A stretch of DNA of 35,112 nucleotides from a virus, in IMG/VR virus record IMGVR_UViG_3300043420_001163, positions 1 to 35,112 of that record; one strand, written 5' to 3'. This document shows, in pieces, positions 10,517 through 35,112 of the stretch. The translations under genes were made by a program, and so were the position numbers. Every line of letters starts with the position of its first letter. Position 1 is the stretch's first letter. Below the pieces are notes generated by a model. The model saw only the letters and a program-made list of their open reading frames with translations. It was not told the DNA's origin and did no database searches.

Positions 10517-10946
10517 AACTCGACTCCCGGTAAGGGCACTTGATTTCGATTTGATGCTTTTCGCCTAGTCCGTCAATCTGAGCCACCAAGTGGGGATGCT
10601 TCTTGGATTGCAAAACCAGTTCGTCTAGCTTCTCCCCGAGCCGCACTTCCATCATTTCCCTGACCTTGGGTTCGAGAGCCTTGCCGTGCTCCGTGGCAGC
10701 ATTGGGTTTGAACTTTTCCATCCCCAGTTTTCGCTTGAGACACTGGAAGCGGGTCATGAACGGGCTCACCCCAAGTATCGCAGGGGTCTCACTCGCTCCA
10801 ATATGCTGAAGCCTCCATTGAAGCCAATCTTCGACTAAATCAAACGAGTAGGTGACGTATGGTAGGTGAACACTTTCGGATACTTCTCGTCCATGTTTTT
10901 CATCATTACATAGGTTATCTTCTCCCCCGACCTGAGAATCTTCCAT
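10296..10946 (-). CDS. YqaJ-type viral recombinase exonuclease
   Basis: About 216 residues from the chosen ATG at 10946, which has GGAGGAG about 12 bases upstream; an upstream ATG at 11000 is possible. YqaJ exonucleases degrade one strand of duplex ends to make single strands for a phage annealing protein. Motifs in order are IGASE (49-53), a Glu at about 92 (KALEPK), the metal-binding D125 (AQIDG), E134-I-K136 (IEIKCP), and the QMQHQ helix near 158-162. These are the active-site residues of the lambda-exonuclease/YqaJ class. The 5' end overlaps the helicase gene by 112 bases and the 3' end overlaps the plus-strand nuclease frame. It belongs to the operon with the Sak4-like ATPase, DUF669-like protein and helicase. 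Confidence 0.85.
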   Translation of the reverse strand: MEDSQVGGEDNLCNDEKHGREVSESVHLPYVTYSFDLVEDWLQWRLQHIGASETPAILGVSPFMTRFQCLKRKLGMEKFKPNAATEHGKALEPKVREMMEVRLGEKLDELVLQSKKHPHLVAQIDGLGEKHQIEIKCPYRESSFIEMVGKIPEHYVVQMQHQMLVTGRDKALFVFYYKGHLLLHSLSACRETQDMIVAETLQFVEDLQTAREANRR

Positions 10947-12334
10947 TTCGCGAGTCCGCTCCTCCGTGCCCATTGGTTCGGGTGATTTATGTTCAGCCAA
11001 TCTGTAAAGACCCCCATGTCCGTGTGGATAGTCACAAGTATTGCATCATGTCCGTTTCGTGTTGTTATTGTTTTATAGGAAAGACTTTTCACCTTCAACT
11101 CTACCAGGGGACTAACTGGGTTCTCTCTCGGCTTAATAAACATGTAATCGCAATACGGACACGTTCTTGTGCTCGCTGACACTTCCATTTCGCACTCGGG
11201 ACATTCTTTCGTCGGAGCATCTTGACCGAGAGAGAGGGGGATATCGTCCCTCTCAGGGGTGCTATAATCCATCGGATTCGTGATATCCCCGAAGCGGTCG
11301 AGGTTATCCGTAAGCTCTAAAATGGTGGCCTCTTCCTTTCCTGGAAAGGGCCTCAGTGCCCGTCCAATTGCTTGAATGTACAAGCTTGCGGACATGGTGG
11401 GACGTAGAAAAACAATGCCGTCACAGATTGGGATATCGGTGCCAGTCGTGAGCACGTTGCAGTTTGCGACGAACTTCTGTAGTCCGTTCTTCATCCGCTG
11501 GATGAGAGTATCCCTATCCTTCGTCTTCGTCTCTCCATCAATATACGCACAACCGGGTATCGCCTCTGAAATGCGTCTTGCGTGCTCCCTGGAGCAGCAG
11601 TAGATGATGACACATTTACAGTGCATGATTGATGAGAGTATCCAATCTCTTGCGTTTTTAATCTCTTCATCCTGCGAAGCCTTGGCACCCAGGGCCTCAT
11701 ACTCGGATTTCGTTATCTCTCGACTCGACTTGCCGACCCTAATCGACGTTGAACCCTGAATGAAACGGTAGGCCGAAAGCCTGTCCATTGCGACAAGCTC
11801 CCTGATACCCAAACGATACGCGCATATCTCGAAAGGCTTCTTTTTTCCGTACACTTTCCCACCGACAAGGCGGTATGGTGTGGCACTCATGCCGATGATA
11901 TAACGAGCCCGACAGTTCGAGAAGATTTGCTGATAACTGCTTGTCTTGCCGTTTGATACTAAGTGGCATTCATCGACGATTACCAGGTCAAAATAGGGCA
12001 AGCTTTGCTGAGCACGAATGCTGTCTCGACTCGCAAACACAACGGGGCCGCTCATGTCTTTCTGACCCAGACCGTTGCAGTAGATGGATGACCGGATACC
12101 AGGGTTCAAACGGTGAAGCGCATCCCTGTTCTGAGTCAGGATTTCCCTAACATGACACAGAACAAGGATTCTGGCTTCGGGGCTTTTGGTTATCGCACGA
12201 CTTGCAAGCTCGGCGGCTATCAGACTTTTTCCAGCCCCCGGACCAAGCTCCAGCATGACACGAGCAAAGCCACGTCGAAAAGCATCAATCGTCTTTTCGA
12301 CGGCTTCAACCTGGTAATCTCGAAGTTTAATCAC
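10835..12334 (-). CDS. Superfamily II DNA helicase (DEAD/DEAH-like)
   Basis: A 499-residue helicase with a full motif set: Walker A GPGAGKS (31-37), DECH (121-124), SATPYR (150-155), GTD (298-300) and Q-A-I-G-R-A-L-R (321-328). After the two RecA folds comes a probable zinc finger with C378, C381, C392 and C395 (CPEC and CPYC pairs), then a short mixed C-terminal domain. It most resembles phage helicases related to UvsW/RecG/type III restriction-like SF2 enzymes that remodel forks and branched recombination intermediates. The start is GTG, overlapping the stop of the preceding DUF669-like gene (GTGA). Neighbouring nuclease and ATPase genes place it in replication and recombination. Confidence 0.9.
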   Translation of the reverse strand: MIKLRDYQVEAVEKTIDAFRRGFARVMLELGPGAGKSLIAAELASRAITKSPEARILVLCHVREILTQNRDALHRLNPGIRSSIYCNGLGQKDMSGPVVFASRDSIRAQQSLPYFDLVIVDECHLVSNGKTSSYQQIFSNCRARYIIGMSATPYRLVGGKVYGKKKPFEICAYRLGIRELVAMDRLSAYRFIQGSTSIRVGKSSREITKSEYEALGAKASQDEEIKNARDWILSSIMHCKCVIIYCCSREHARRISEAIPGCAYIDGETKTKDRDTLIQRMKNGLQKFVANCNVLTTGTDIPICDGIVFLRPTMSASLYIQAIGRALRPFPGKEEATILELTDNLDRFGDITNPMDYSTPERDDIPLSLGQDAPTKECPECEMEVSASTRTCPYCDYMFIKPRENPVSPLVELKVKSLSYKTITTRNGHDAILVTIHTDMGVFTDWLNINHPNQWARRSGLAKWKILRSGEKITYVMMKNMDEKYPKVFTYHTSPTRLI

Positions 12335-12750
12335 AGCGGTACATCATCCATTTTCTTGACTGGAGAAGCCTTGCCCTTCAAGCTGTTTAAGACGTTCTTG
12401 TCCTTGTAAATGCCGACATCTACCAGGCATTCAAAGCCGATTAACTTCTGCATGTCGCTTGAACTTCGAAGCTTGATTCCCATCGCATCACAGATTGCCT
12501 TCATCGTTCCGCGCCCTCTTTTCACTGCACCTTCCCATTCAGGATGATTCAGATACAGGTTATTGAAAAGCTTCCGATTTCGATGCGTTCCTTCTGTCAC
12601 TGTCAAGACAAGCTTGATATACGGATTACCGTGTACATCTTCCTTCTCTTCACACTCTTCGACACACATCGCGTATTCAGCCTTTGGCAACAAACCAAAT
12701 GACTCAAGAGTTTCTGTCACTTCATCCGGGTTGAAAAAATATTCGCTCAT
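12331..12750 (-). CDS. DUF669-like protein (probable single-stranded DNA-binding role)
   Basis: A 139-residue protein. The pattern of aromatic and hydrophobic strands (KLVLTVTEG, RKLFNNLYLNHPEWEG) followed by a helix and a C-terminal segment matches phage DUF669 proteins, which commonly sit between Sak4-like ATPases and helicases and are thought to act like single-stranded DNA-binding proteins. The C-terminus ends in an acidic and hydrophobic tail (KKMDDVPL), a feature often seen in SSB-like proteins. Both ends overlap neighbours by a few bases (ATGA with the gene before, GTGA with the helicase after), so expression is likely coupled. The family assignment is by pattern only. Confidence 0.65.
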   Translation of the reverse strand: MSEYFFNPDEVTETLESFGLLPKAEYAMCVEECEEKEDVHGNPYIKLVLTVTEGTHRNRKLFNNLYLNHPEWEGAVKRGRGTMKAICDAMGIKLRSSSDMQKLIGFECLVDVGIYKDKNVLNSLKGKASPVKKMDDVPL

Positions 12751-12977
12751 TTGCTTGCCCTCACTGCTTTCTCAAGTTCCACAAATAGACGCTCGTTTTC
12801 CTTGTACATGCTGCGGGTTCTTTCCACCGTCGCAATGTTAAAAGGTTCCGTCTTCATCTTCCCGATTTCCTCGCTGTTCGACATAATCTTCTCGAACAAG
12901 GCTCGCGCCAAATCCTCAGAGGGAATCGAAGATTGCCCTTGCTGATTCGTCGTTTTTGATTGGTATGAACTTTTCAT
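12747..12977 (-). CDS. Small helical protein of the recombination operon, unknown function
   Basis: About 76 residues from the ATG at 12977, chosen because GAGGGGG lies five bases upstream; a longer form from 13007 has no good ribosome site. The N-terminus is S/Q/T/K-rich and probably disordered. The rest forms two likely helices (EDLARALFEKIMSNSEEIGK and a second ending ELEKAVRASK). It overlaps the end of the upstream ATPase gene by 62 bases in another frame and its stop overlaps the next start (ATGA). No family recognised; context suggests an accessory of the Sak4/DUF669 recombination system. Confidence 0.6.
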   Translation of the reverse strand: MKSSYQSKTTNQQGQSSIPSEDLARALFEKIMSNSEEIGKMKTEPFNIATVERTRSMYKENERLFVELEKAVRASK

Positions 12978-13662
12978 GAGTCCCCCTCGTTTTTGCCACC
13001 ACCGCACCCGAACTACTCGTTTGCGCTAAAATGTTATTCCTGAACTTTGCAACGGGCTTTGCGCCGTCTCTTTCTGCTACGACCTTCTCTTGATGCAAGT
13101 ACCAAATGTAATCGACGTTTGCTTTGATACGTTCGCTGATTCGCTTGTCAAGGGAAACATTGAATCGGTCATAGCCTCCCGATGATGGGTCTTGAAACGT
13201 CTCCACAGTCGCATGAGCAATCAGAATCACGTTCTTGTTATGCTTTTTCAGTGACTCGACCAGTTCCAGAAACAAAGCCGCTTCAGCCGAAAGCTTTTGG
13301 TACCCTGCACCATAGCCGAAAGCAGCTAGCGTGTCTTTCGGTCCCTTGTCGTCTCCATTCTTGCAAATGTCTTGGATGATGAGTTCCTGAAGCTTGGACA
13401 GCGAATCAATCACGATGGTCGTGAATCGCTCACTGTTCAAACACTTCATCAAAAGCTTCTTCACTTCGGGCCAAGAATCGATAGGGGTCGTCGCAAAGGT
13501 GTCAAAGCTCTTCAAATCAACACCCTTCAAACCGTTCTCGATATTAATAATGAGAGCCTTCGGTGCCTTCGCTGCAAAGGTCGTCTTCCCGATACCGCTC
13601 TCACCATAAAGCAGCATTGTCCATGCCTGGTCTTCGAACTCTTGGACTATTTCGATCGTCAT
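12916..13662 (-). CDS. Sak4-like RecA-core ATPase (AAA_24 family)
   Basis: About 248 residues. Walker A is GESGIGKT (20-27 from this start) and a Walker B-like strand is IVIDS (83-87), followed by a segment ending ILIAHAT that resembles the RecA-core motif 3 region. The length and layout match phage Sak4/AAA_24 nucleotide-binding proteins, minimal RecA-like ATPases that promote single-strand annealing. The first gene of a minus-strand operon with the small helical protein, DUF669-like protein, helicase and YqaJ exonuclease, a standard phage recombination set. The start is uncertain: ATG at 13662 has a G-rich stretch seven bases upstream, while ATG at 13677 adds five residues without a clear ribosome site. 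Confidence 0.8.
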   Translation of the reverse strand: MTIEIVQEFEDQAWTMLLYGESGIGKTTFAAKAPKALIINIENGLKGVDLKSFDTFATTPIDSWPEVKKLLMKCLNSERFTTIVIDSLSKLQELIIQDICKNGDDKGPKDTLAAFGYGAGYQKLSAEAALFLELVESLKKHNKNVILIAHATVETFQDPSSGGYDRFNVSLDKRISERIKANVDYIWYLHQEKVVAERDGAKPVAKFRNNILAQTSSSGAVVAKTRGTHEKFIPIKNDESARAIFDSL

Positions 13663-13677
13663 TGCGTAACCCCCCAT

Positions 13678-22942: not shown

Positions 22943-23233
22943 ATGAAAGTTGCATGGAGCACGGTTATCACAGATATGGACGGCGAAGAGATTAAGGACG
23001 GGGCCAAGCCTCTGACACTCGCTCGTGTCGCTATCAATTCCCTCACCGCTTTATCACAAGCCGACCAGCAGCTATCCGGCGAAGAGAAGTTCAAGCTTGG
23101 CCAACTTGCATTCAAGATTCATGCTGAGCCTGAAGGGGAATTCGAAGTGGAAGATGTAGCTAAGGTCAAGGATAAGATTGGCAAACTCTACGCTCCGTAT
23201 ATCGTCTTCAAGGCTTACTCCCTCCTCAAATGA
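22943..23233 (+). CDS. Conserved-looking phage protein of unknown function
   Basis: A 96-residue protein with a GGAG ribosome site. The pattern, a strand-rich N-terminus with DGEEIKDG, a helix LTLARVAINSLTAL, a E/G-K-containing helix and a final FKAYSLL, matches a widespread class of small phage proteins of unknown role; I can name no accepted function. It ends with a four-base overlap on the terminase large-subunit start (ATGA), which suggests translational coupling to packaging genes. Confidence 0.6.
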   Translation: MKVAWSTVITDMDGEEIKDGAKPLTLARVAINSLTALSQADQQLSGEEKFKLGQLAFKIHAEPEGEFEVEDVAKVKDKIGKLYAPYIVFKAYSLLK

Positions 23234-24672
23234 CTCCAGAAGAAAAAGCCGAAATCGTCAAAAAGATATTCCGCGCCTGGACGACCGGCGACCTTCGGTA
23301 CAAGATGCACGAAGGCCAACTCCAAATCTATACCGTTCTTAGGAACCTCCCACCCGAAGTCCGTATCCGGATGATGGAATGTTGCCGTGGCTACGGGAAG
23401 TCTACCTTGAATGTTCTTATGGCTTGCGAGGATTGCGCCAAGCCGCACCCCTTGAACTATCCCGTTCGTATTGTCGGGCCTGAGAAAGACCAAACCGTCG
23501 ATATCGTTGCGCAGATATTCGATATCATTGGGGCAGAAGCTCCCCCCGGATGGATTAAACGCAAGGGCTCTACCTGGTTCGTCGGGCATAACCGAATCAT
23601 CGTGAGTGGGTTTAACCTTGGGTCCATCGAGAGACTTCGAGGAAAGAGAGCCATGTCTATCTACCTCGAAGAGATTCGAGACGTGCCGAGCGAATCTTTT
23701 GAATATGGTATGAAGTCCGTCCTGCTGCCTATGTCTCTCTTGGTAAAATGCCCCATCACTGCGGCCACCACGTCGAGTAGTCAAATCCTGCACTCCATGA
23801 ATACCTACTTCAAGCAGAAGGCTATCGCTAACGATGGGTACTTTCACTTCGATATCCATGACTGCCCCCTCTATGGTCCAGAAGAAATCAAGCAGGCTAT
23901 CGAGGATTGCGGGGGACCTCACACCGAAGACTTTATCAGGGAATACCTCTGCATCGCCGTCGATACCAAGGTTCAACTAGCCGTCCCTGCCTTCAGCGAA
24001 GAGAGACACGTTAGAGACTTTGACTTCCCGAAGCGAGACTTCAAACGGTGGATGATTACCGACGTAGGGGGCCTTGGCGACCCTACCCATTCGCTCGTGT
24101 TCTTCTATGATGAAGATGCACGCAAAGTCCGCATCAAATCCGAACGTGTCTTCGAACCTCGGACTCCCACTAGCGACCTCGTGAAGAACCTGCGAGAGAT
24201 TGAAGAGGAAGCCGGTATCATCGAGGAAGATGATGACAAACCTAGCTTCATGGACTGCCCAGGTCAGTTCATGGTGGACCTTCAGGAAGAACACCTTTAC
24301 CGATGCAGCTTCGTCCAGAAAGGCGGCTTCCAGGAGTCTGTCAAAAGTCTTAACCAAGGCTTCCATGATGATATGATTGAAATCCATCCCTCTTGCGAAC
24401 AACTTATTCATCAGCTCAAGACCGGCAAGCTCAATAAGCAGAACAAGGATTTTGAAAGAGAGCCGAAGATAGGTAAATTCATTGCACATCATTGCGATGG
24501 TATCGCAGCCGCTATGTATGGCTGGAGAATGCGTGACGTGTCGAAAATCAGGGTCATGCCTAAGATAGACAGCGATACCCAGTGGATTCATCCCATGGTG
24601 CTCGAACAGATGATGAACAGAATGGACGATAGAAAACTTGAAGCAATCAGGCCTAAAATGAAGAGGTTCTAA
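23230..24672 (+). CDS. terL: Terminase large subunit
   Basis: A 480-residue DNA-packaging motor with ATPase and nuclease domains. Walker A is CRGYGKST (52-59) and Walker B IYLEE (144-148). The nuclease domain has three acidic residues in the expected order: D278 (MITDVG), D342 (FMDCPG) and D423 (HHCDG), the last followed by A and Y as usual. The protein docks on the portal, pumps DNA with ATP and cuts it at the end of packaging. The start overlaps the previous stop (ATGA) and the TAA overlaps the next ATG. The length is typical. Confidence 0.94.
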   Translation: MTPEEKAEIVKKIFRAWTTGDLRYKMHEGQLQIYTVLRNLPPEVRIRMMECCRGYGKSTLNVLMACEDCAKPHPLNYPVRIVGPEKDQTVDIVAQIFDIIGAEAPPGWIKRKGSTWFVGHNRIIVSGFNLGSIERLRGKRAMSIYLEEIRDVPSESFEYGMKSVLLPMSLLVKCPITAATTSSSQILHSMNTYFKQKAIANDGYFHFDIHDCPLYGPEEIKQAIEDCGGPHTEDFIREYLCIAVDTKVQLAVPAFSEERHVRDFDFPKRDFKRWMITDVGGLGDPTHSLVFFYDEDARKVRIKSERVFEPRTPTSDLVKNLREIEEEAGIIEEDDDKPSFMDCPGQFMVDLQEEHLYRCSFVQKGGFQESVKSLNQGFHDDMIEIHPSCEQLIHQLKTGKLNKQNKDFEREPKIGKFIAHHCDGIAAAMYGWRMRDVSKIRVMPKIDSDTQWIHPMVLEQMMNRMDDRKLEAIRPKMKRF

Positions 24673-25052
24673 TGACTCTCATAACAGCGACAGAGACTTT
24701 CGACGAAGAACTACTTGACCCCGAACTGTCTGAAGACATGGCCGAGTTAATCGAATGGCTTAATGCCAATATGCAGAACATCGTGTCTGCTTTGAACGGC
24801 GGGATATCCGACCAGAATACAAGCATCCAAAGCTTAGAAGTGAAAGCTACAAGCGGTGTTAAACAATTCATTCGGATTGAAGGCGACGTTTCACATGTAG
24901 AAGTATCAAGAGTTATTAGTCAGCCAGATACCCAGACCACCATCACTGGATACAATTGGTGGCCGGCAACAGGAGGTTTCGAGTTCTTAGTTAATTGGGA
25001 AAACGGTAGCAACACTTACAACGTACAACTAAGGGTGCATTTCAATGTTTGA
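24672..25052 (+). CDS. Unknown protein between terminase and scaffold
   Basis: A 126-residue protein. The N-terminal half is acidic and helical (FDEELLDPELSEDMAELIEW; NANMQNIVSALNGG) and the C-terminal half is beta-rich with a tryptophan and aromatic core (GYNWWPATGGFEFLVNWEN). The TAATG with the terminase and an eight-base overlap with the scaffold imply joint translation. It may be a small virion or assembly factor; no family recognised. Confidence 0.55.
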   Translation: MTLITATETFDEELLDPELSEDMAELIEWLNANMQNIVSALNGGISDQNTSIQSLEVKATSGVKQFIRIEGDVSHVEVSRVISQPDTQTTITGYNWWPATGGFEFLVNWENGSNTYNVQLRVHFNV

Positions 25053-25953
25053 AGAAAACAACACATCAGCAGATTTTGGCGATTTATTCGAAGACACTCC
25101 CGAACCCGAAGCAGAAGTCGAAGAGACCGAAGCAGAGGAAGCGGAGGCCGAGCCTGAAGCCGAAGAGTCTGAAGAATCCGAGGACAAGGAACCCTCCGAA
25201 GAATCCGAAGAGTCCGAAGAGTCAGAGGAAGCCGAGACACCTGAAGAGCCTGAAGACAAGGGTATCATCGCAACCATTGAAATCGATGGTCAGCAGTTCC
25301 CCCTGGATGAAATGAAGGTTCAGAAGATTGCCGAACAATATGTCGAGGTGGCACAGCAGAATAAGGTTCTGGCCAAGGACAGAGAGCAAGTCGTCCAGGT
25401 TATGGGTATCGTCGAGAACATTAGAAACGGTGTCGATATCGATGAGTCCATGAAAGCCCTCGGAGTGGACTTCGATGCTCTCATTCGAGACAAGGTGAAG
25501 GACTTCATCAGACGTTCCACTATGAGTTCAAAAGAGAGAGAACTCGAAGACGCAAACAAAGAACGCGAGATTCTCCGTAAGAAGATTGCCGAACGGGAAG
25601 CCAAAGAAAAGGAAGAGATGGAGGCCAAAGCTTCCCAAGAACAGGCAACACTTATAATTGATACAGTTAACATGGCGGTGTCAAAAATCCCCGAACAGCA
25701 TAGGAAGGAAATTCAGCTCGAAGTGTTCGGAGCTATCGAACGTCGGATTCGTTCAGGTGGCATGCCACCATCTTCGAAAGCAATCGAAAACGCAGTGCAG
25801 ACAGTCTATAATCGTAAGTATAAGTCTACGCCTCAGGCTGTTACAAAAAAACAATCCGTTGCTCCCAAGCCATTGAAAAATTCTCCCAAACCCGTGACAA
25901 TGGAGAAAAAGAAGTCTTATAATGCGGTAGATTATAACGACCTTTTCAGATGA
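25045..25953 (+). CDS. Capsid scaffolding protein
   Basis: A 302-residue protein with a very acidic E/S-rich N-terminus (about residues 13-72, long runs of E, S and A), a helical coiled-coil middle (about 160-200) and a basic P/K-rich C-terminus (from about 265). This polarity, acidic repeats to a basic tail, and the position just before the capsid gene are typical of scaffolds. They bind the coat protein, guide shell assembly and leave or are removed before packaging. No protease domain is visible, so it is probably a pure scaffold. Confidence 0.82.
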   Translation: MFEENNTSADFGDLFEDTPEPEAEVEETEAEEAEAEPEAEESEESEDKEPSEESEESEESEEAETPEEPEDKGIIATIEIDGQQFPLDEMKVQKIAEQYVEVAQQNKVLAKDREQVVQVMGIVENIRNGVDIDESMKALGVDFDALIRDKVKDFIRRSTMSSKERELEDANKEREILRKKIAEREAKEKEEMEAKASQEQATLIIDTVNMAVSKIPEQHRKEIQLEVFGAIERRIRSGGMPPSSKAIENAVQTVYNRKYKSTPQAVTKKQSVAPKPLKNSPKPVTMEKKKSYNAVDYNDLFR

Positions 25954-25967
25954 TGGAGAATTAACAC

Positions 25968-26462
25968 ATGAGTCTGCAAGCCTTGACGCTAGAGAATCCG
26001 CAACTTGCCGCGTCTCAGCCACACCAACTAAAATTGGTGTTCACTGTGACAGCCGGTGTCGTGACCCAGATTGCGACCAAAAATAGACTTCCGATTATCT
26101 TCGGTACTGCTGATTCTGCTTTCACGCAGGCAGCCGTTAACGCTCTTCTCGGAGTGGATTCGGCAACCTCGACAGAAGAGATTGATACGACGGTCGCTTT
26201 CGGTTCAACAGCTCTCGGCGTAGATGCTTTTGGCTTCGTTCTCGCTTGCAGTGGACAGATTGCGGATGTCGTCGGCATGGAAGCGGTTCTCTATGATGCT
26301 GAAGACATGAAGTTCGTTCCTAAAGTCACGTCCCTTCCTGACACTCTGACAGCGGGCCTCCTGGTAACCCCAGCAGGAAACCTCGCAGGTCGTGTGATTC
26401 CGACAGGACTTGATTCGGAAACCGGACAACTCGTTATCACTATCCATTTCTTCAGCAAATAA
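25968..26462 (+). CDS. Probable capsid decoration protein or fibre
   Basis: A 164-residue protein, mainly beta-rich (VTAGVVTQIATKNRLPIIFG; GLLVTPAGNLAGRVIP), with many small residues and few charges. It lies between the scaffold and the major capsid protein, the common place for head-decoration proteins that bind the outside of the shell. It has a modest ribosome site (GGAGAA) and a gap of 11 bases to the capsid gene. Its function is inferred from context. Confidence 0.6.
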   Translation: MSLQALTLENPQLAASQPHQLKLVFTVTAGVVTQIATKNRLPIIFGTADSAFTQAAVNALLGVDSATSTEEIDTTVAFGSTALGVDAFGFVLACSGQIADVVGMEAVLYDAEDMKFVPKVTSLPDTLTAGLLVTPAGNLAGRVIPTGLDSETGQLVITIHFFSK

Positions 26463-26473
26463 GGAACTGAACC

Positions 26474-27868
26474 ATGAGTCAACAATCACAAGCAGCTACC
26501 TACAACGGTCTATTCAAGAAGGTATACGGCAAGTTTAATAACCTCCGTGTACCTGGTATGAAACTTCTCGACTTCATCCCATTTGAAGGTTCAGCCGGTG
26601 ACGGCGAGTCTTATATCGAGGGAATGGCGCTTACGGATGAATCCGGCCATACCTGGACAGGATCGGGCCTTGCCCTTGCAAACATCAACCCCGCAAATGC
26701 CGGTGTTGTGGAGCAAGCCGAGTACAAGTCCTATGAGTACCTCCTGACTTCCGTTATCCCATGGAAGGTCATGTCCCGCTCTGACGGTAATGAGAAAGCC
26801 TTCAAATCTGCCACCAAGTACCTCGTTTCGAATAACCTAGAGTCTCACGCTCGTACCCTTCAAGACGTGGTTCTATACGGTCAGGATACGGAGCACGGTC
26901 TCTTCGGGCATACCTCCTACACAACCGCAACCTACCGCGGTGTGGCTCTTACGGCAGGATCCGGAACGGTTAACGGTGTCGCCTTCACGAACGGTGTGAA
27001 CGCTGCCGGTCGTCACGTCCTCTTTAACCTCGGTGAGTTCGCTTCTGGACTCTTCGTCGGTCGTGAAGGAACCGTTTTTGTCGAAATCGAGCGGTCATCA
27101 GGTTCCGTGGTCTACGAAAGCCGACTCAAGTCGGTGGACGTGGAAAACGGCTACGTGACCTTCGAAGACGGAACCCCCGTTGCTGCTTCCTCCCTCACTT
27201 CCCACTACTGGGGAATCAAGGGAATGGAAGACACCACGAAGCTTATGCCTGGTATCATCAAGATTATCAGCACGCAGAGTGGACAGCTCTTCGGAATCGA
27301 GACCAGCAAGTACAGCAGGTACCGCGGTATTGTTGTCCCTGGTGGCGGGCCTAACAGTGGCGTAAAACTCACCTTCGGTCGAATCCTTGACGGTATCGCT
27401 TACGCAGCTAACAAGGGCCTCGGAACTCCGACGCAAGTCGAACAGATGGTGTTCATGAACAACCTCGCTTGGGCGAACGTCCTTGATGACCAGATGGCAT
27501 ATCGCCGCTACGACTCAAGCTACAAGATTTCGTCCCTCGATGTTGGCGCGAACATGATTACGTTCCATAGCCAAATCGGTATCACGAAGCTTGTCCCTTG
27601 CTCCATCATCAAGGAAGGCGAGGCTATCGGTCTCTGCAAGCCTATGAATGCAGCAGGCGCATCCGAGAACGTGCCTAACCGACACTGGTACCGAGGCGGT
27701 TCGTCTGAGATGTCCTTCAAGGTGCCCGGTGCCGATGGACAGCTTATCAAGCTGCTCGATAACCAGACCGGTTACAAGTATACAAGCCGCTCCGACCAGT
27801 TCGTAGCGTGCCGTGTACCTGGATACCAAATCTACTGGACAGGGTTCAACTGGGAATCAAATACCTAA
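26474..27868 (+). CDS. Major capsid protein
   Basis: A 464-residue protein with a GGAAC site. It starts with a short N-terminal arm and follows the scaffold and decoration-like genes. The pattern of a long helical spine (ATKYLVSNNLESHARTLQDV), strand-rich axial domain, and the loop KLDGIAYAANKGLGT-like region fits an HK97-fold coat protein. Many copies form the icosahedral shell. It is followed by a clear terminator. Evidence is overall resemblance, size and context. Confidence 0.85.
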   Translation: MSQQSQAATYNGLFKKVYGKFNNLRVPGMKLLDFIPFEGSAGDGESYIEGMALTDESGHTWTGSGLALANINPANAGVVEQAEYKSYEYLLTSVIPWKVMSRSDGNEKAFKSATKYLVSNNLESHARTLQDVVLYGQDTEHGLFGHTSYTTATYRGVALTAGSGTVNGVAFTNGVNAAGRHVLFNLGEFASGLFVGREGTVFVEIERSSGSVVYESRLKSVDVENGYVTFEDGTPVAASSLTSHYWGIKGMEDTTKLMPGIIKIISTQSGQLFGIETSKYSRYRGIVVPGGGPNSGVKLTFGRILDGIAYAANKGLGTPTQVEQMVFMNNLAWANVLDDQMAYRRYDSSYKISSLDVGANMITFHSQIGITKLVPCSIIKEGEAIGLCKPMNAAGASENVPNRHWYRGGSSEMSFKVPGADGQLIKLLDNQTGYKYTSRSDQFVACRVPGYQIYWTGFNWESNT

Positions 27869-27898
27869 GTCGATACCAGGTTAGATTTGGTGTATATT

Positions 27899-27921
27899 AC
27901 CCTGCATAGCAGGGTTTTTTT
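27899..27921 (+). terminator. Intrinsic terminator after the capsid gene
   Basis: ACCCTGC (27899-27905) and GCAGGGT (27909-27915) form a perfect seven-base stem with loop ATA, and T bases run to 27921. It is a textbook rho-independent terminator, 31 bases after the capsid stop and 14 bases before the tail-fibre start. It probably lowers expression of the downstream genes compared with the capsid gene. Confidence 0.9.
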
Positions 27922-27934
27922 ATTGGGGTGAAGC

Positions 27935-30900
27935 ATGGCCACGGTCGTTACCTTTAACGGTGTCTCTTATTCAGTTCCAGCAGTGAACGAAGAGGATTGG
28001 GAAAGCCTGTCCAATTATCTGGTAGCTCTCCAGAATGCCGCTGTCAGTGGTGGGCCGAAGGTTTCAAATATCCGTGTCTCAACTTCAGCAACCACAGCGG
28101 TAGCCACTACCGACTATGCGGTACTGATTAACTATGCTGGAGCAGCTACTGTCAATCTTCCGGCAGGTGCTACAGGCCAAGTCTTCGTGATTGCCGACGT
28201 GTCAGGGGCAGCCGCTACCAATAACATCACCATCAACCGGAATGGTGCGAACACGATTCTAGGGGGGACTTCCCTGGTCCTCGACCGTAATAACGAAGTC
28301 GTGATTCTGGCCTTCAGTGGGGGCAACTGGTACCGAGTGGGTGATGCACTTCCAAATGCTGTTTCATCCCCTGCATCGACCACTGCAAACGGAATCATGG
28401 CATTTACTGGGACCGACGGCAAGTTTGCAAGTGACCTCGGAGTAGGTACAGCCGATGATGTCCTTGTGACCAATGGGACGACCCCTTCATTCGCCAAGAT
28501 AGTGAATGCTAACGTCGATGGGGCAGCAGCTATTGCCTATAGCAAGCTTGCTTTGACAAACTCCATCGTGAACGCTGACGTGTCATCTAGTGCAGCCATT
28601 GCATACAGCAAATTGAATCTGACGGGCCATATTGTAAACTCCGATATCAATGGCTCTGCAAATATCGCATATTCAAAACTAAATCTAACGAATAAAATCG
28701 ATAATAGTGACATTAAAAGCTCTGCGGCTATCGATTATAGCAAGCTCAATTTGACCGGGCATATCGTAAATACCGATATTAATGCTTCTGCCGCTATTGC
28801 TTACTCGAAGCTTGCTTTGACTGGCTCTATTGTGGATGCGGACATTAATGCTTCTGCCGCTATCGCCTACTCTAAGCTTGCTTTGACAGGTTCTCTTGTG
28901 AATGCAGATGTTAACGCATCCGCAGCTATCGCCTATAGCAAGCTTGCTTTAACGGGTTCCATTGTCGATGCAGATATTAATGTTGCTGCTGCTATTGCCT
29001 ATAGCAAGCTTGCTTTAACGGGCTCTATCGTGAACGCGGATATCGACGCTTCCGCGGCTATCTCTTATTCGAAGCTTGCTTTGACAAGTTCTATCGTGAA
29101 TGCCGATATCAACGCATCAGCAGCTATTGCACGGACCAAGATTGCATCCGGTTCCGCTAGTCATGTGGTGGTGAACGATGGGGCCGGTGCTCTGTCTAGC
29201 GTGGCAACGCTCCCCGTGTCCCAAGGCGGTACTGGACTTACTGCTATTGGTTCCGCTCTCCAAGTGCTACGTGTGGATTCAGGCGGTACAGCTCTTGAGT
29301 TCGCAACCCTCGCAGCCGGTTCCGGTGACGTGTTGGGACCGTCTAGCTCGGTCACAAATGGTATCGTTCAGTTTGCTTCGACAACTGGTAAGGCAATTAA
29401 AGACCTTGGGGTGGGTTCGGCAAACCAGGTGCTTATTACCGATGGTACCGCTCCTAGTTTTGGGTTAATCACAGATGCATACATCGACGCATCAGCCGCA
29501 ATTGCGATTTCCAAGCTTGCAACACTAACAGCTAGTCGGGCTCTTGAAACAAGCGCTGGCGGTCTTATATCAGCAAGCACGGTGACCTCTACGGAACTTG
29601 GCTACGTTTCAGGAGTCACGAGTTCCATTCAGACTCAGCTAAATGGAAAACTCCCCCTCACGGGCGGAACGCTTACAGGCGCTTTGACAGTTGGCGGATC
29701 GCTGACCTTCAACACTGGCGGATCTGCTGCTGACTATCGCATTTGGCGAAGTGGCCCGAACATGTTAATGCAATACAGTTCCTCGGGTGCTTTCCAGTTG
29801 CAAGATTCTTCATTTAACCGCGCAATACTCGCAGCCGATACCGGCTACGTATTCATTGGAAGCAGCAGCAATACGACAAGCCCGCATAGCATTATAACCG
29901 GTGGTGTTTTTGGCCTTCCGGTTGTTTACATCGAAAACGCAGGCGAGTTTGAGTCGACAATCGGCTGGAGAATCATTGGAAACAACACGGTAAGCTTTCT
30001 TGGGGCGTCAAGCACAGAGAGCTTGGTTGTCTACAATTCGAGTAAGACAATTAAGCATTTGTCCATTAGTTCGGCTGGCGATGCCACGTTCAGCGGGGCG
30101 GTGACTCTCTCCAATAACCTAATTGTCGATACCGATACGCTATTTGTGGATGCGAGTGCTAACAGGGTTGGTGTGGGGACGGCTACACCATTATATCAGT
30201 TTGAAGTGAGGCAAAGTGCAGAGGACTTTGCAGCAATAACGACAAACAGCTCCACAGTATCGCAAGGGACCGGGTTATATCTCCGCACAACGTCAGAGGC
30301 CCGTATTAGTGTTGGGTCAAATGCTAAGTTGTCTTTCTATGATAATGGACCAACCGGAACAGAGAATGGATCAATAAGCGGGTCTGGGGCTTGGACGCTG
30401 GGGCCTGCTCCAGTGGCGGCAACTAACGGCGTGTTGCATAAGATTGCTACTGGTGACCAAGGGGCTACAATTGTTTTAGACACATCGCTTGCAGGCTATG
30501 TCCAGTTCAGTAATGCGGCGTCCGGAAGCATGCAACCTTCTATAGTTGGCGTTACATCGGATGCAAACGTACCTGGACTTGGATTGTTCTCCGCTACGTC
30601 TAACTCCAACACAAATGCGGATATGGTTTTTGATGTTAGAGAAAATGACGCTACAGACTTTTCTACATTAACGACAGACGCCTTTCGGTGGCGACGTTCC
30701 AATAATGTAATAGGAAGCGTAACCCGTGCCGGAGCCTGGACGCTGGGGCCGAGTAGTGCGGCGAGCACCACTCATATCGTCAATGGGGGCATCTCTAATA
30801 TATCTTCCATAACAGCCCAGCCAACAGAGATAGGACGCAGCGATGCATCCACATCATCTGGTGTTATGGGTATTACAAAGTTCAACACAACTGTGGCCAA

Positions 30901-31312
30901 CACAAGACTAGTCTTTGGATACGCATCCACCAACACAACCCAAGGAACTGCTCGGGGATATATTCGGGTAAACTCCACCTCCAACAATTTGGAATTTGAG
31001 GGGACCTCTGACAGGCGGATAAAAACGGCAATTGAGGATTTGCAAGAGTCGTCCCTCGCCAGATTAGCAGAAGTCAGGGTGCGGAAGTATGAGATGAGGG
31101 AGTTTCCGGGGGTTGTGGGGACAGGGTTTATTGCCCAAGAATTAAACGAATGTTTTCCTGAATTGGTCACACAAACAGATGACGGGCAGGGAGAAACCTT
31201 GCCGGAAGGGCAATCCCCCTGGACTATTTCAGAGGCGGGGTTTACTCCTCACCTCATCAAAGCCATCCAAGAGCTAGCCGCCAAAGTAGAAGCTCTAGAG
31301 GCAGCTAGTTGA
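27935..31312 (+). CDS. Tail fibre with 22-residue repeats and S74 intramolecular chaperone
   Basis: A 1125-residue fibre with a GGGG ribosome site. The N-terminal 170 residues are beta-rich, probably the virion anchor. Residues 200-397 are nine copies of a 22-residue repeat (IAYSKLALTGSIVNADINAS and relatives), a trimeric-shaft type. Then come further shaft motifs (LPVSQGGTGLTAIG; LPLTGGTLTGAL) and two SGAWTLGP-like segments. The C-terminus is an S74/endosialidase chaperone: S1025 and K1030 in TSDRRIK form the expected dyad, then GFIAQELNECFPELV and IKAIQELAAKVEALEA. This domain trimerises the fibre and usually cuts itself off. It is the receptor-binding candidate. Confidence 0.88.
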   Translation: MATVVTFNGVSYSVPAVNEEDWESLSNYLVALQNAAVSGGPKVSNIRVSTSATTAVATTDYAVLINYAGAATVNLPAGATGQVFVIADVSGAAATNNITINRNGANTILGGTSLVLDRNNEVVILAFSGGNWYRVGDALPNAVSSPASTTANGIMAFTGTDGKFASDLGVGTADDVLVTNGTTPSFAKIVNANVDGAAAIAYSKLALTNSIVNADVSSSAAIAYSKLNLTGHIVNSDINGSANIAYSKLNLTNKIDNSDIKSSAAIDYSKLNLTGHIVNTDINASAAIAYSKLALTGSIVDADINASAAIAYSKLALTGSLVNADVNASAAIAYSKLALTGSIVDADINVAAAIAYSKLALTGSIVNADIDASAAISYSKLALTSSIVNADINASAAIARTKIASGSASHVVVNDGAGALSSVATLPVSQGGTGLTAIGSALQVLRVDSGGTALEFATLAAGSGDVLGPSSSVTNGIVQFASTTGKAIKDLGVGSANQVLITDGTAPSFGLITDAYIDASAAIAISKLATLTASRALETSAGGLISASTVTSTELGYVSGVTSSIQTQLNGKLPLTGGTLTGALTVGGSLTFNTGGSAADYRIWRSGPNMLMQYSSSGAFQLQDSSFNRAILAADTGYVFIGSSSNTTSPHSIITGGVFGLPVVYIENAGEFESTIGWRIIGNNTVSFLGASSTESLVVYNSSKTIKHLSISSAGDATFSGAVTLSNNLIVDTDTLFVDASANRVGVGTATPLYQFEVRQSAEDFAAITTNSSTVSQGTGLYLRTTSEARISVGSNAKLSFYDNGPTGTENGSISGSGAWTLGPAPVAATNGVLHKIATGDQGATIVLDTSLAGYVQFSNAASGSMQPSIVGVTSDANVPGLGLFSATSNSNTNADMVFDVRENDATDFSTLTTDAFRWRRSNNVIGSVTRAGAWTLGPSSAASTTHIVNGGISNISSITAQPTEIGRSDASTSSGVMGITKFNTTVANTRLVFGYASTNTTQGTARGYIRVNSTSNNLEFEGTSDRRIKTAIEDLQESSLARLAEVRVRKYEMREFPGVVGTGFIAQELNECFPELVTQTDDGQGETLPEGQSPWTISEAGFTPHLIKAIQELAAKVEALEAAS
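28532..29125 (+). repeat. Nine tandem 66-base repeats in the fibre gene
   Basis: Nine in-frame units of 66 bases run from 28532 to 29125, with a partial tenth. The block AAGCTTGCTTT is repeated six times (units 1 and 5-9), while units 2-4 differ there. Units 5-9 are more alike than 1-4. Copy number could change by recombination. Confidence 0.85.
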
Positions 31313-31337
31313 CGGTGGGAATAGAAAAGGAAAATAA

Positions 31338-31481
31338 ATGCCAAGTAAATCGCCAAAACAAAAGAAGTTAATGCAGGCAGCAGCACACAATAAAGATTTT
31401 GCTAAAAAGGTAGGCGTACCTCAGAAGGTAGCTAAAGAGTTCGTCAAAGCCGACAAAAAGAAAGGGAGTAAAAAGAAATAA
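31338..31481 (+). CDS. Small lysine-rich phage protein
   Basis: A 47-residue basic protein beginning MPSKSPKQKKLMQAAAHN and containing FAKKVGVPQKVAKEFVKADK. Short proteins with this M-P-x-K-S...Q-x-x-L-M-x-x-A-A-H and V-A-x-E-F pattern are common among tail or structural genes of phages. Their role is unknown. AAAAGG gives the ribosome site and the stop overlaps the next ATG. Confidence 0.7.
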   Translation: MPSKSPKQKKLMQAAAHNKDFAKKVGVPQKVAKEFVKADKKKGSKKK

Positions 31482-31783
31482 TGGCAACACAACCCGCAAT
31501 CATTAGGCCAGTTATGGTTAGGGCCGGACACCTCGCCGTACAAACTAGCGCATCAGGTGCAACATACGTGACCCTCGCTCACAATGTTTGTAATCAGGTT
31601 ACAGTGAGTAATCAAACGGGAGTATCAATCGCTGTCAGACAAGACGGTTCCGGTGATATCTTCGTCGTACCTACGGGCGCATTTTATACGTTCTTTGGTA
31701 TTTCAAGCACGAATGAGATATCTTTCAAAAGACTAGACGACTCTAATTCTCAAGTGACTCTGTATTGGCGATGGGAAGGTTAG
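31481..31783 (+). CDS. Small beta-rich virion-type protein
   Basis: A 100-residue protein with alternating strands and few charges (VTLAHNVCNQVTVSNQTGVS; FVVPTGAFYTFFGIS). It starts on TAATG after the basic mini-protein. Such proteins occur in tail regions as spike or decoration subunits. No family recognised. Confidence 0.55.
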   Translation: MATQPAIIRPVMVRAGHLAVQTSASGATYVTLAHNVCNQVTVSNQTGVSIAVRQDGSGDIFVVPTGAFYTFFGISSTNEISFKRLDDSNSQVTLYWRWEG

Positions 31784-31787
31784 CGCA

Positions 31788-31928
31788 ATGATGAAAATGC
31801 TGCGAGGTAATCACTTCCCATTTGCAAACGGGTACGGACTTGTAATTTTTGTTTATGTTTTGTTTGTCCCGCTTGGATCTGACAGGCTAATAACATCGGA
31901 CGGCGACGTTTTTAAAGTGAGAGGCTAA
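31788..31928 (+). CDS. Small hydrophobic protein
   Basis: A 46-residue protein with a hydrophobic centre (YGLVIFVYVLFVPLG), enough for one membrane helix, and a charged C-terminus. It lacks a strong ribosome site. It lies between two virion-type genes. ATG choice at 31788, 31791 or 31797 is uncertain. Real expression is likely but not proven. Confidence 0.45.
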   Translation: MMKMLRGNHFPFANGYGLVIFVYVLFVPLGSDRLITSDGDVFKVRG

Positions 31929-31929
31929 A

Positions 31930-32310
31930 ATGGCAGATTTTAATTCGGCGTATACAGGCGCGCAAATTGATGCTGGGATTGCCGCTGCAAACACGGCCAC
32001 ACAGCCCGGAGATTTAGCTACAGTTGCCACTAGCGGTGACTACAATGATTTGTCAAACAAGCCAACTCTTGGCACGGCGGCAGCAACTAACAGCACAGAC
32101 TATGCTACGGCGGCGCAGGGTTCGACAGCAGACACCGCGCTACAGCCAGGTGATAACATTTCAGATTTGACTAATGATGCGGGCTTTGTGCCGAGCGATA
32201 CAACCGGCGTGACAGGAGCTGACGCAATTACCAATATTATCTCGTTAACGCAGGCGGAATACGACGCTATTGTGTCTCCAAACGCCTCTACTTTATACGT
32301 GGTTGTTTAA
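31930..32310 (+). CDS. Fibre-like appendage protein
   Basis: A 126-residue protein with repeated phage fibre phrases: QPGDLATVATSGDYNDLSNK, then AQGSTADTALQPGDNISDLT, and LTQAEYDAIVSPNASTLYVV at the end. These sequences are common in tail-fibre shafts and baseplate-linked proteins. It could be a short fibre tip or an adaptor for the following appendage proteins. Confidence 0.65.
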   Translation: MADFNSAYTGAQIDAGIAAANTATQPGDLATVATSGDYNDLSNKPTLGTAAATNSTDYATAAQGSTADTALQPGDNISDLTNDAGFVPSDTTGVTGADAITNIISLTQAEYDAIVSPNASTLYVVV

Positions 32311-32311
32311 T

Positions 32312-33253
32312 ATGGCGTTGAAACTCGGAACGGCCACACCAAGCAAGCTCTACGTAGGCTCGACAGAGGTGACCAAGGCGTACCTTGGCGCTTCTGAGGT
32401 ATATTCATCTGGGCCTGCCCTTGACCCTGACGCAGCGGCCTACATCACCGCAGTCGAAACCGCTGACGGACAGGCGCTAGAGGCAGGCTTGGTTACTGCA
32501 ATCAACGACTTTGTGGTTGGCTGCAAGGCCGATGGTATCTGGACTGCCATCAAGGCTAGTTGCATCCTTGCGGGTGCCCGAACGCTTAGCGGTGCTTTGG
32601 TGCCGTTGGCGGGAACTGCGCCGACTAATTTCAACTTTGTATCCGGGGATTACAATAGAAAGACGGGGCTAGTGGGAGATGGAAGTACGAAGTATCTGGA
32701 CAGCAACAGGAACAACAATGCTGATCCGCAAGATAATCAGCACATGTCTGTTTGGGCATCAACCGCCGCAACCAGCACAGCGTCTACTTTCCCAATTTAC
32801 ATAGGGGCAGGAGCGTTAGGCACGGGAGCAACTCATATAGGTCGCCTCGCCTCTGACGGTGTTCTTTACTTAAGAAACAGAAATAGTGAGTATCAGGAAG
32901 CAATTCCGGGATCGGCCGTGGGGCTTCTTGGCATGTCTAGGAACTCCTCAAGTTCTTATGTGTCAAGAGTGGATGGAATAAACACGAACAATAACGTCAC
33001 TTCTCAAACTCCATTGAATCAGAATGTAATTGTCTTCGCTGCCAGCTCTGACCCCGGTAGGCCATCTAACGGCCGCCTCGCCTTCTACAGCATCGGTGAA
33101 GCCATTGACCTCGCATTGCTAGATGCACGTGTTTCCACGCTGATTGCCGCACTTCAATTCGGCATAAACACTGGACTAGCCGCAAGTGACTACGACGCCG
33201 ACACGGTGGCTTACGTTAACCGTGGTTATGCAGCAGGAGGTTCGCTAGCATGA
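32312..33253 (+). CDS. Virion appendage protein, paralogue 1
   Basis: A 313-residue protein from the ATG at 32312. It has an N-terminal extension with a short module (LYVGSTEVTKAYLGASEVYS) found in appendage proteins, a central block shared with the next gene (GTAPTNFNFVSGDYNRKTGL then VGDGSTKYL and SNRNNNADPQD), a variable middle and the conserved end LAFYSIGEAIDLALLDARVS. It carries a further C-terminal tail. It probably is a receptor-binding or host-range protein; no lectin motif is claimed. Confidence 0.65.
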   Translation: MALKLGTATPSKLYVGSTEVTKAYLGASEVYSSGPALDPDAAAYITAVETADGQALEAGLVTAINDFVVGCKADGIWTAIKASCILAGARTLSGALVPLAGTAPTNFNFVSGDYNRKTGLVGDGSTKYLDSNRNNNADPQDNQHMSVWASTAATSTASTFPIYIGAGALGTGATHIGRLASDGVLYLRNRNSEYQEAIPGSAVGLLGMSRNSSSSYVSRVDGINTNNNVTSQTPLNQNVIVFAASSDPGRPSNGRLAFYSIGEAIDLALLDARVSTLIAALQFGINTGLAASDYDADTVAYVNRGYAAGGSLA

Positions 33254-33933
33254 GCCAAGTGAAAAACCTAGTTGACGCGATTGACGCCTTTATTACTGGA
33301 AGCAAAGCAGACGGCACCTGGAACGCGATTAAGGCGAGTTGCATTTTGGCGGCGTGGGATAACCTGAATGGTGCGTTGGTGCCGTTGGTGGGGACGGCGC
33401 CTACGAACTTCAACTTTGTCTTTGGTGATTATAACAGGAAGACAGGATTGGTTGGAGATGGAAGTACGAAATACTTGAATAGCAACAGAAACAACAATGC
33501 AGACCCGCAGGATAGCAAGCACTTTTCCGTTTTTGCGTCAACATTATTTAACAACACCGTTATTGGGGCTTTTGATGGGGTGGGGTCAACTGGTGCCAGT
33601 TGGTTGGCAAGAGACGCGACCACCACATATGTAAGGCTTAACGCTAGTTCATCAAACGCAACAGTTGAAGTCGCTGCCACTGGTTTTATCGGAGCAAGCA
33701 GGTCTTCATCAACAACTATAAACAGACGAATTTTTGGAACGACGATTACTGGAATAAGCCAAAATTCTGTTATTCCGTCTAATACACCTGTTAATGTTTT
33801 CAGGCAAGGTTTGGCTAGTCAGTTTTCAAACAGTCGCCTCGCCTTCTACTCCATCGGCGAAGCTTTAGACCTCGCTTTGCTTGACACTCGCGTTTCTGCA
33901 CTAATAACTGCTATTGACGGAGCAATTCCATGA
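33250..33933 (+). CDS. Virion appendage protein, paralogue 2
   Basis: A 227-residue protein whose ATG overlaps the previous stop (ATGA). The shared block begins at about residue 20 (GSKADGTWNAIKASCILAAW), goes on through the GDYNRKTGLVGDGSTKYL motif, and ends with the LAFYSIGEALDLALLDTRVS segment. The middle is different from paralogue 1. It lacks the extra N-terminal module. Tandem duplication followed by divergence is likely. Confidence 0.65.
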   Translation: MSQVKNLVDAIDAFITGSKADGTWNAIKASCILAAWDNLNGALVPLVGTAPTNFNFVFGDYNRKTGLVGDGSTKYLNSNRNNNADPQDSKHFSVFASTLFNNTVIGAFDGVGSTGASWLARDATTTYVRLNASSSNATVEVAATGFIGASRSSSTTINRRIFGTTITGISQNSVIPSNTPVNVFRQGLASQFSNSRLAFYSIGEALDLALLDTRVSALITAIDGAIP

Positions 33934-34163
33934 ACGCACTAATCTTTACCGACGCTGACGCTCAAACGTTAATCGCTTATCAATCGGGCCAACACCGCCT
34001 TGCCCCGGTGCAACTGACTGACGGGCGATGGTTCCTCATGGAAGACATTTTGACAGAAATTCCAGACGGGCTTTTTGGGGGCAAGCTCAATGTGAGCTAC
34101 GAGACTGAGCAATTTGACAATATCAAACAACTAATTCCAGTTGCAGAGATTGATTTTATTTAA
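33930..34163 (+). CDS. Small protein following the appendage genes, unknown
   Basis: A 77-residue protein with a compact beta/alpha pattern (APVQLTDGRWFLMEDIL). The ATG overlaps the previous stop. Small proteins at this place can be appendage chaperones, but the sequence gives no proof. Confidence 0.55.
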   Translation: MNALIFTDADAQTLIAYQSGQHRLAPVQLTDGRWFLMEDILTEIPDGLFGGKLNVSYETEQFDNIKQLIPVAEIDFI

Positions 34164-34176
34164 AAGGAGATAAGAA

Positions 34177-34344
34177 ATGATGGACGACAAGAAAAAGAAA
34201 ATCGCCGACAAGCTTATTAAGTACATGGAAGAACTTCTCGAAGATGAAGACCCTCTATACGAAGATGATGAACTTTTCGAAAAAGTAAAGAAGCCGAAAA
34301 TCAAAGTAATGGTCAGTAAGAAGCTTAAAGAAAAGGCTGAGTAA
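34177..34344 (+). CDS. Small highly charged protein
   Basis: A 55-residue protein with a strong AAGGAG site. Blocks of K alternate with blocks of E and D (MMDDKKKKIADKLIKYMEEL; DEDPLYEDDELFEKVKK). It is too short for the usual gene cut-offs. The stop overlaps the next ATG (TAATG). No function recognised; probably an assembly accessory of the adaptor. Confidence 0.6.
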   Translation: MMDDKKKKIADKLIKYMEELLEDEDPLYEDDELFEKVKKPKIKVMVSKKLKEKAE

Positions 34345-35112
34345 TGTACACGACTGAAGACCTAGTTGACCAAATTAAGGAGAACACTTCGACTGAATTT
34401 GCACAAGGTCGATTCAGTCAAAGTACAATTATTGACATTTGTAACCAAGAATCCATTAAGCGTATTCGACCTATCATATCCGACCTTCAAAAAGAGTTTT
34501 TTGTCGTATCAACTTCGCTAGCAGTTGCAGCAAACCAGAAGCATGTCAGACTTCCAAAGCGCGCTTCAGGTCGGGGACTCCGTGAACTCTACTTGACAGT
34601 GGATACCGAGAGGCACTTGCTGACACAGATTACCAGGGAGCAAGCAACGAACGAGGAAACCACGAACAGCGGTATCCCTCGCAAGTTCTACTTCGAAGCC
34701 GACTCCATCGTGTTCACACAGCCAATGTCGCAGGCAGCTACCCTTGAACTGGTTCTTGAAGTCTCACCCGGTCGCCTGGTTCTCTCAACTGCAACCACAA
34801 CCGTGTCATCAGTGGACTTTGATACCGGGGTTGTTGTCGTATCCGGTACTCCATCAGGATACGGCTCTCCCGTCGAATACGACTTCATCCAGCAGCTTGG
34901 CTACGGGAATGCCGTGCTTGCATGTGGGTTGACACCCGTATCCGTGGTGGGGACGACATACACGTTTACGGCTAGCGAACTGCCTAAGACCCTGGCACCG
35001 GGGGACTACATCACCCTCGCAGGACAAACACCCATCCCGAACATGCCAGACGAAGCCGTAGCCTGTCTGATTCATGCGGTGTCTACCCGTATCTACAGGC
35101 TACGTGGTGATT
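34344..35112 (+). CDS. Head-tail adaptor protein, N-terminal part (runs off the window)
   Basis: At least 256 residues are visible and the frame stays open to the last base. The start is MYTTEDLVDQIKENTSTEFA; helices near the N-terminus (FSQSTIIDICNQESIKRIRP) precede a beta-rich region and a helix PDEAVACLIHAVSTRIYRL. This layout resembles P22 gp4/T7 gp11-type adaptors that extend the portal ring. The position before a nozzle-like gene in a circular map supports the idea. The missing C-terminus limits the call. Confidence 0.6.
   Translation, partial: MYTTEDLVDQIKENTSTEFAQGRFSQSTIIDICNQESIKRIRPIISDLQKEFFVVSTSLAVAANQKHVRLPKRASGRGLRELYLTVDTERHLLTQITREQATNEETTNSGIPRKFYFEADSIVFTQPMSQAATLELVLEVSPGRLVLSTATTTVSSVDFDTGVVVVSGTPSGYGSPVEYDFIQQLGYGNAVLACGLTPVSVVGTTYTFTASELPKTLAPGDYITLAGQTPIPNMPDEAVACLIHAVSTRIYRLRGD

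Follow-up and report, generated by a model that had tools for sequence, protein, structure and literature searches.

A recurrent phage gene pair with a predicted lectin-like fold, exchangeable middle segments and a helix-like tail on its first gene

Introduction

Two neighboring genes in a viral DNA record raise the question of why their ends are alike while their middles differ, and what the encoded proteins might do. The window, by which we mean the whole stretch of DNA analyzed, comprises positions 1-35,112 (35,112 bases) of the virus record IMGVR_UViG_3300043420_001163 and carries terminase, portal, primase and endolysin genes. The original prediction, made from the letters alone, was that the two genes encode duplicated host-range proteins with diversifying middles, whose shared ends can act as recombination anchors. 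Structure prediction of both proteins and swapping of the middle among relatives were named beforehand as checks, and uniform similarity along the length, or a lack of variation among relatives, as observations that would speak against it. How aquatic phages recognize their hosts is inferred mostly from genes to which no function has been assigned.

Results

The two genes, here called A and B, lie on the plus strand at 32312-33253 (313 aa) and 33250-33933 (227 aa), and both belong to the phrog_17104 family, which carries no function annotation; A matches positions 3-261 of the 264 in the profile (E 1.7e-88) and B positions 32-264 (E 1.2e-69). A begins with an N-terminal module of 33 aa (32312-32410), followed by a first helix (residues 39-52, 32426-32467) with the family motif D-x-DAxxYIxAVExADGQALE, a conserved N-block (residues 60-144, 32489-32743) which includes GDYNRKTGLVGDGSTKYL, a hypervariable, exchangeable middle (residues 147-253, 32750-33070), a conserved C-block with the GRLAFYSIGEA... 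helix (33071-33172) and a C-terminal tail of 27 aa (33170-33250). B consists of a conserved N-block (33268-33522), a hypervariable middle (residues 94-194, 33529-33831) and a conserved C-block (33832-33924), and has no counterpart of the 33-aa module, the first helix or the 27-aa tail of A. Stop and start codons of the two genes overlap in an ATGA (33250-33253), and a Shine-Dalgarno-like AGGAGG site for B (33235-33240) is placed within AGG codons of the tail of A, 9 nt upstream of the ATG of B.

The proteins are identical at 126 of 229 positions (55%, BLASTP E 2e-71), which is far above chance. This likeness is concentrated at the ends, as originally described for the pair: 67 of 85 residues (183/255 nt) are identical in the N-block and 22 of 31 (63/93 nt) in the C-block, compared with 32 of 110 aligned amino acid columns (129/330 nt) in the middle. 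The DNA similarity noted in the first block corresponds to a repeat of 173 nt (79%), and the other end also contains one, of 80 nt (76%); no such repeat spans the middle in the same comparison. The shared motifs quoted at that time are indeed inside the conserved blocks, which are longer than the motifs, and the divergent stretch exists but, by the block limits used here, measures 107 residues in A and 101 in B rather than 130-150.

Directly upstream of A lie a tail fibre with an S74 chaperone (27935-31312) and then a Phage_tail_C protein (31930-32310). The N-terminal module of A is shared, at 61-64% identity, with tail-protein genes of the mycobacteriophages DroogsArmy and SWU2. The tail fibre itself contains many near-identical repeats of the INASAAIAYSKLALTGSIVNAD type at 28500-29150, and this region aligns in multiple registers to a sister contig (L090, the contig of L009).

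Relatives of A and B were found in the Synechococcus phages S-CBS4, KBS-S-2A, S-CBWM1 and S-SRP02; S-CRM01 matched partially, and at least 573 relatives were confirmed in one scan of IMG/VR. Partly from their records, we take S-CBS4 and KBS-S-2A to be siphoviruses, S-SRP02 to be a member of Autographiviridae and S-CRM01 of Kyanoviridae. Genome contigs of bacteria and archaea gave 63 pattern matches, of which only two (L088 and L089) are true relatives. Their contigs had been assigned to the bins of a Parcubacteria bacterium (425 kb) and of a Planctomycetaceae bacterium, and are probably viral contigs or proviruses within these bins. Pfam has no family for B, and A matched only DUF7754, below the curated cut-off (15.4 of 27 bits); neither protein matched the Concanavalin A/LamG families above their curated cut-offs. 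Relatives of the two middles of the window alone were not found in IMG/VR with a scan that requires an exact short peptide and therefore gives a weak absence.

Mean protein identity among 166 distinct relatives was 73% in the N-block, 22% in the middle and 69% in the C-block, with corresponding DNA values of 67%, 33% and 69%. Neither of the two contrary observations named beforehand was made: similarity changes along the length, and the relatives differ among themselves. This set was reduced from 224 domains to 166 distinct DNA sequences and left out domains below 100 bits or short of profile positions 45-250, as well as L006, L007, L090 and L091, which repeat the window or the contig of L009. 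The conserved-variable-conserved profile is also clear over 109 distinct domains, from which ORFs open at the 3' end were left out: column entropy rises from about 0.6-0.9 over most of the N-block to 2.2-3.4 in the middle and falls to 0.3-1.3 in the C-block. The middles of A and B are diverged versions of one fold and not unrelated domains: in an alignment of 70 sequences, conservation reaches at least 90% at G207, R210, R219 and S231 of A.

The AlphaFold2 model of A (pLDDT 89.2) is a jelly-roll with N-terminal helices at residues 39-52 and 58-73 and a C-terminal helix at 267-287, and B is modeled as the same jelly-roll without the first helix (pLDDT 90.2). Structure matches include CBM40, AbnA domain 4, lectin domains of sialidases and other LamG-like domains, and the closest solved folds are lectin/CBM-like domains of glycosidases (VIA-align Z about 15). 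Both proteins are thus predicted to be concanavalin A/LamG-like jelly-rolls, although a lectin fold alone is no proof of their function. The cyanopodophage Pan3 tailspike (9vyh chain p) was matched with Z 13.7 over 208 aligned residues (rmsd 3.7, VIA-align); model residues 40-279 cover chain positions 2-270, nearly the whole chain, but at 10% identity, i.e. the fold matches without a sequence match. A search of PDB with sequence profiles of the family matched no chain at E up to 10. Binding domains of clostridial neurotoxins ranked high in Foldseek; at 5-15% identity we read this as a shared jelly-roll lectin fold and not as kinship or toxicity.

Identity of the N-block barely predicts that of the middle (Spearman 0.21 over 5886 pairs). 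Middle DNA is at least 0.70 identical in 47 pairs, and in 13 of these the similarity is clearly lower at the ends (in 11 pairs at both ends). Swapping of the middle among relatives is apparent in seven of 20 shared-middle groups, which are mosaic, with middle DNA up to 98% identical against ends down to 60-74%. In the pair L008/L010 identity is 0.74 in the N-block, 0.98 in the middle and 0.74 in the C-block (Fisher p 3e-18 and 1e-12), and the shared segment starts at residue 123 (numbering of A throughout), within TGLVG-DGSTKYL, and ends at 254, before RLAFYS. In the other clear cases the shared segment starts at residue 121 or 104 and ends at residue 273 or 268, while four less clear cases start at 70, 130, 164 and 196. 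Because the fitted exchange borders are mostly within the conserved end blocks, the shared ends look like recombination anchors, as had been suggested. The A gene of S-CBS4 (L001) and the solo gene L068 have a common middle, as do the B gene of the sister phage (L009) and the solo gene L069; exchange of the middle crosses gene types (A/solo, B/solo).

The opposite pattern, replacement, was seen in 20 pairs (thresholds N-block at least 0.85, C-block at least 0.82) with ends of 0.83-0.98 DNA identity and unalignable middles of 0.27-0.40. In all 20 the dissimilar segment extends from about residue 134-150 to 250-254, and in 19 the middles are of unequal length. Taken in both directions, these patterns point to adhesin-like modular exchange between conserved anchors. 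All 20 of the closest pairs in the binned table (N-block DNA at least 0.94) retain middles of at least 0.85, so on this scale the exchange is not fast. Genes for a YqaJ-type nuclease, a ResIII helicase, a DUF669 protein and an AAA_24 ATPase are present at 10296-13677, likely a replication and recombination block. YqaJ-type nuclease, DUF669 and AAA_24 ATPase genes belong to phage recombination modules, and those of the window may have a role in exchange of the middle.

Among all loci examined the short C-terminal tail occurs in 32 ORFs and an overlapping B comes next in 32 of 32; likewise all 32 B genes sit behind a tailed A, although contigs that are identical or nearly so contribute many of the loci, so that the number of independent dyads is below 32, and the absence of the first-helix segment is partly built into the criterion by which B was called. 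GGAGG is found shortly upstream of the start codon in 15 of 15 distinct junctions, 14 of which have ATGA and one GTGA. Synechococcus phage S-CBS4 has the same dyad with tail and ATGA (gp056/gp057, hypothetical proteins in their records), and on sequence grounds A and B are a recurrent coupled dyad. Three fused two-domain ORFs (L027, L037 and L079) contain a full helix motif between the domains. A programmed frameshift between A and B was considered and set aside: in several dyads the frame of B stays open upstream for only a few codons, and inspection of the junctions by eye showed no slippery run. Six further tailed A-like ORFs (L130, L105, L129, L136, L137 and L145) have long C-terminal extensions and no B. 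That of L130 (3836-5314), the one tested, is weakly Lcl_C-like (PF07603, E 0.0068, below cut-off), and such extensions may represent another adhesin domain.

A branch of the N-block tree with support 97 separates all 16 distinct B rows from the rest, while they need 14 changes on the tree of middles, which indicates that position in the dyad is inherited and the middles are not. A rows require 12 changes on the N-block tree, by which A is no clade, and four on the C-block tree. A recent duplication of A into B is disfavored by the N-block tree, in which the B rows stand together on one side of that well-supported branch; of the original idea of duplicated proteins with diversifying middles, the varying and exchanging middles hold, and recent duplication gives way to a recurrent dyad.

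The tail of A follows the pattern ...D-x-D-[AT]-x-x-Y-[IV]...AGG[ST]L[AS] and is predicted by AlphaFold2 to form a helix at residues 296-307, which matches helix 39-52, whose motif is missing in B. In a single register, each of nine distinct tails fits the N-terminal helix motif, and 0-14 of 2000 shuffles did equally well; all nine score above the 99th percentile of 1320 control 30-mers, and five above the control maximum. The log-odds scores of the motif are low, around zero or below it (9.5 to -16.6), and the case for homology between tail and helix is therefore made by register, position and the predicted helix. Over 12 distinct tails pN is about 0.12-0.16 against pS of 0.59-0.89, and the tail is under constraint at the protein level.

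The sister contig is 95% identical to the window over 24927-28548 and 31295-31835, and 88% over 33835-35112; its adaptor protein is 94% identical. Measured in 60-base steps, identity within the two genes is 65-90% in the N-blocks and 57-85% in the C-blocks, but falls to about 40% in both middles (about 35-52%). A stretch of about 600 bases (about 31840-32420) with the Phage_tail_C gene and the N-terminal module of A is missing in the sister, whose A has the N-terminus MMKMLRGNHFPFANGY instead. A 46-aa ORF of the window at 31788-31928 opens with the same MMKMLRGNHFPFANGY and looks like the former N-terminal module of A, left after insertion of a new one, which indicates that this module was replaced too. 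The sister contig also bridges the window ends (3 and 35112) over about 2.57 kb, so the record is an incomplete genome, although its end ORFs seem to run on into each other.

Discussion

The account towards which we lean, with moderate confidence, is that A and B form a lectin-like adsorption appendage with exchangeable middles, a coupled dyad in which A docks on the tail and holds B by a helix. They would be two subunits of one appendage on the phage tail. In each jelly-roll the N- and C-blocks would provide a conserved framework, and the hypervariable central segment would be the putative ligand-binding face, through which a receptor could be bound. This segment would be replaced by homologous recombination between phages, with crossovers in the conserved end blocks, possibly also among A, B and solo copies. 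B, which lacks the first helix of the fold, would be translated from the ribosome-binding site within the last codons of A and would have no virion anchor of its own; the tail of A would be a copy of that helix. A most likely docks on the tail via its N-terminal module, and most likely holds B by donating the tail helix. The simplest account of this arrangement is an old two-unit lectin in which the boundary between the genes cuts the second unit, leaving its first helix at the end of A and B without an anchor of its own.

A stronger form of this account is possible but somewhat doubtful: B would fold or dock only on A, with the helix donated in trans, ATGA coupling and the internal ribosome-binding site would fix the ratio of the two, and each middle would be exchanged separately. 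The confident model of B alone suggests that helix donation may be needless for its folding. The same model is in accordance with a reading in which the lectins are still receptor-binding proteins with exchangeable middles and the tail of A is a relic of duplication, retained for the ribosome-binding site of B, with A and B as independent appendage proteins. All 12 distinct tails have GGA as codon 15, which would be expected if conservation acts on that site. We nevertheless regard this reading as rather unlikely, since pN/pS is about 0.2 in the first 13 codons, upstream of the site, the tail is predicted to be helical, and it is exactly that segment which B lacks in every dyad, with the reservation on B calling given above. 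A single two-domain gene split by a sequencing or assembly error, for which the fused ORFs could be cited, is next to impossible to reconcile with the same junction in 15 distinct sequences, the isolate S-CBS4 included, and with selection on the tail that runs up to its stop.

The middles themselves might differ by fast point mutation under diversifying selection on vertical copies, or through a diversity-generating retroelement, and residual conserved positions do show that they are homologous. Such an origin without exchange is very improbable given mosaic groups whose middles exceed their conserved ends in DNA identity, and given the unequal lengths in replacement pairs. The retroelement was dropped on these length changes and on the absence of a PF00078 reverse transcriptase match from the incomplete 35,112-base record, with a control search that matched in three of 14 genomes. 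A host-range role of A and B is suggested by fold, gene neighborhood and variability. The proteins could also be virion lectins with another task, such as decoration of capsid or tail, binding of particles or mucus-like polymers, or polysaccharide-degrading spikes; the fold is common to carbohydrate-binding modules of glycosidases and the family is without assigned function. We consider this improbable in view of the position in a tail-fibre block, the tail-type module on A, the fold match to the Pan3 tailspike and a pattern of exchange typical of host-recognition modules.

Exchange of adhesin parts between conserved sequences and variable host-recognition islands in aquatic phages are both already known. 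Exchange of the distal tail-fibre adhesin of T-even phages was reportedly described by Tetart in 1998; that adhesin is a different protein, and unlike it the unit swapped in A and B is the inside of one jelly-roll with conserved framework on both sides. In tailspikes of E. coli phages, conserved motifs flank the exchanged receptor-binding domain and are a proposed recombination hotspot across genera (PMC10408124). The exchanged unit in those tailspikes is an entire C-terminal domain that follows an N-terminal anchor, whereas in A and B it is an internal part of the lectin domain. In aquatic phages that are nearly identical, variable islands are formed by lectin-like, C1q and tail-fibre genes, with variation at the level of genes or domains and, in the accessible portions of these reports, no mention of a split dyad (PMC3909814, PMC7468147). 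We found no description of the phrog_17104 dyad, exchange or fold in the literature covered, which leaves out most subscription journals. Family-level exchange in phrog_17104, a swap inside a single jelly-roll and a dyad that shares a helix are thus apparently new.

The family is large and occurs in Synechococcus phages of what we presume to be several tail types. Since the swapped segment is bounded within about 15 residues, the putative binding face can be named and is directly testable. If the link between the tail of A and the helix of B is real, it would offer a simple assembly rule by which several independently exchangeable lectins are stacked on one tail. The split unit, if it holds, would be a two-receptor or combinatorial adhesin common to the siphovirus S-CBS4 and the podovirus-like phage of the window. 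The probable major capsid protein of the latter (464 aa, 26474-27868) and its terminase (23230-24672) have as sole match among phage records one from Silvanigrella aquatica, at 28-34%, which indicates that the lineage is far from the cyanophages with which it shares the lectin.
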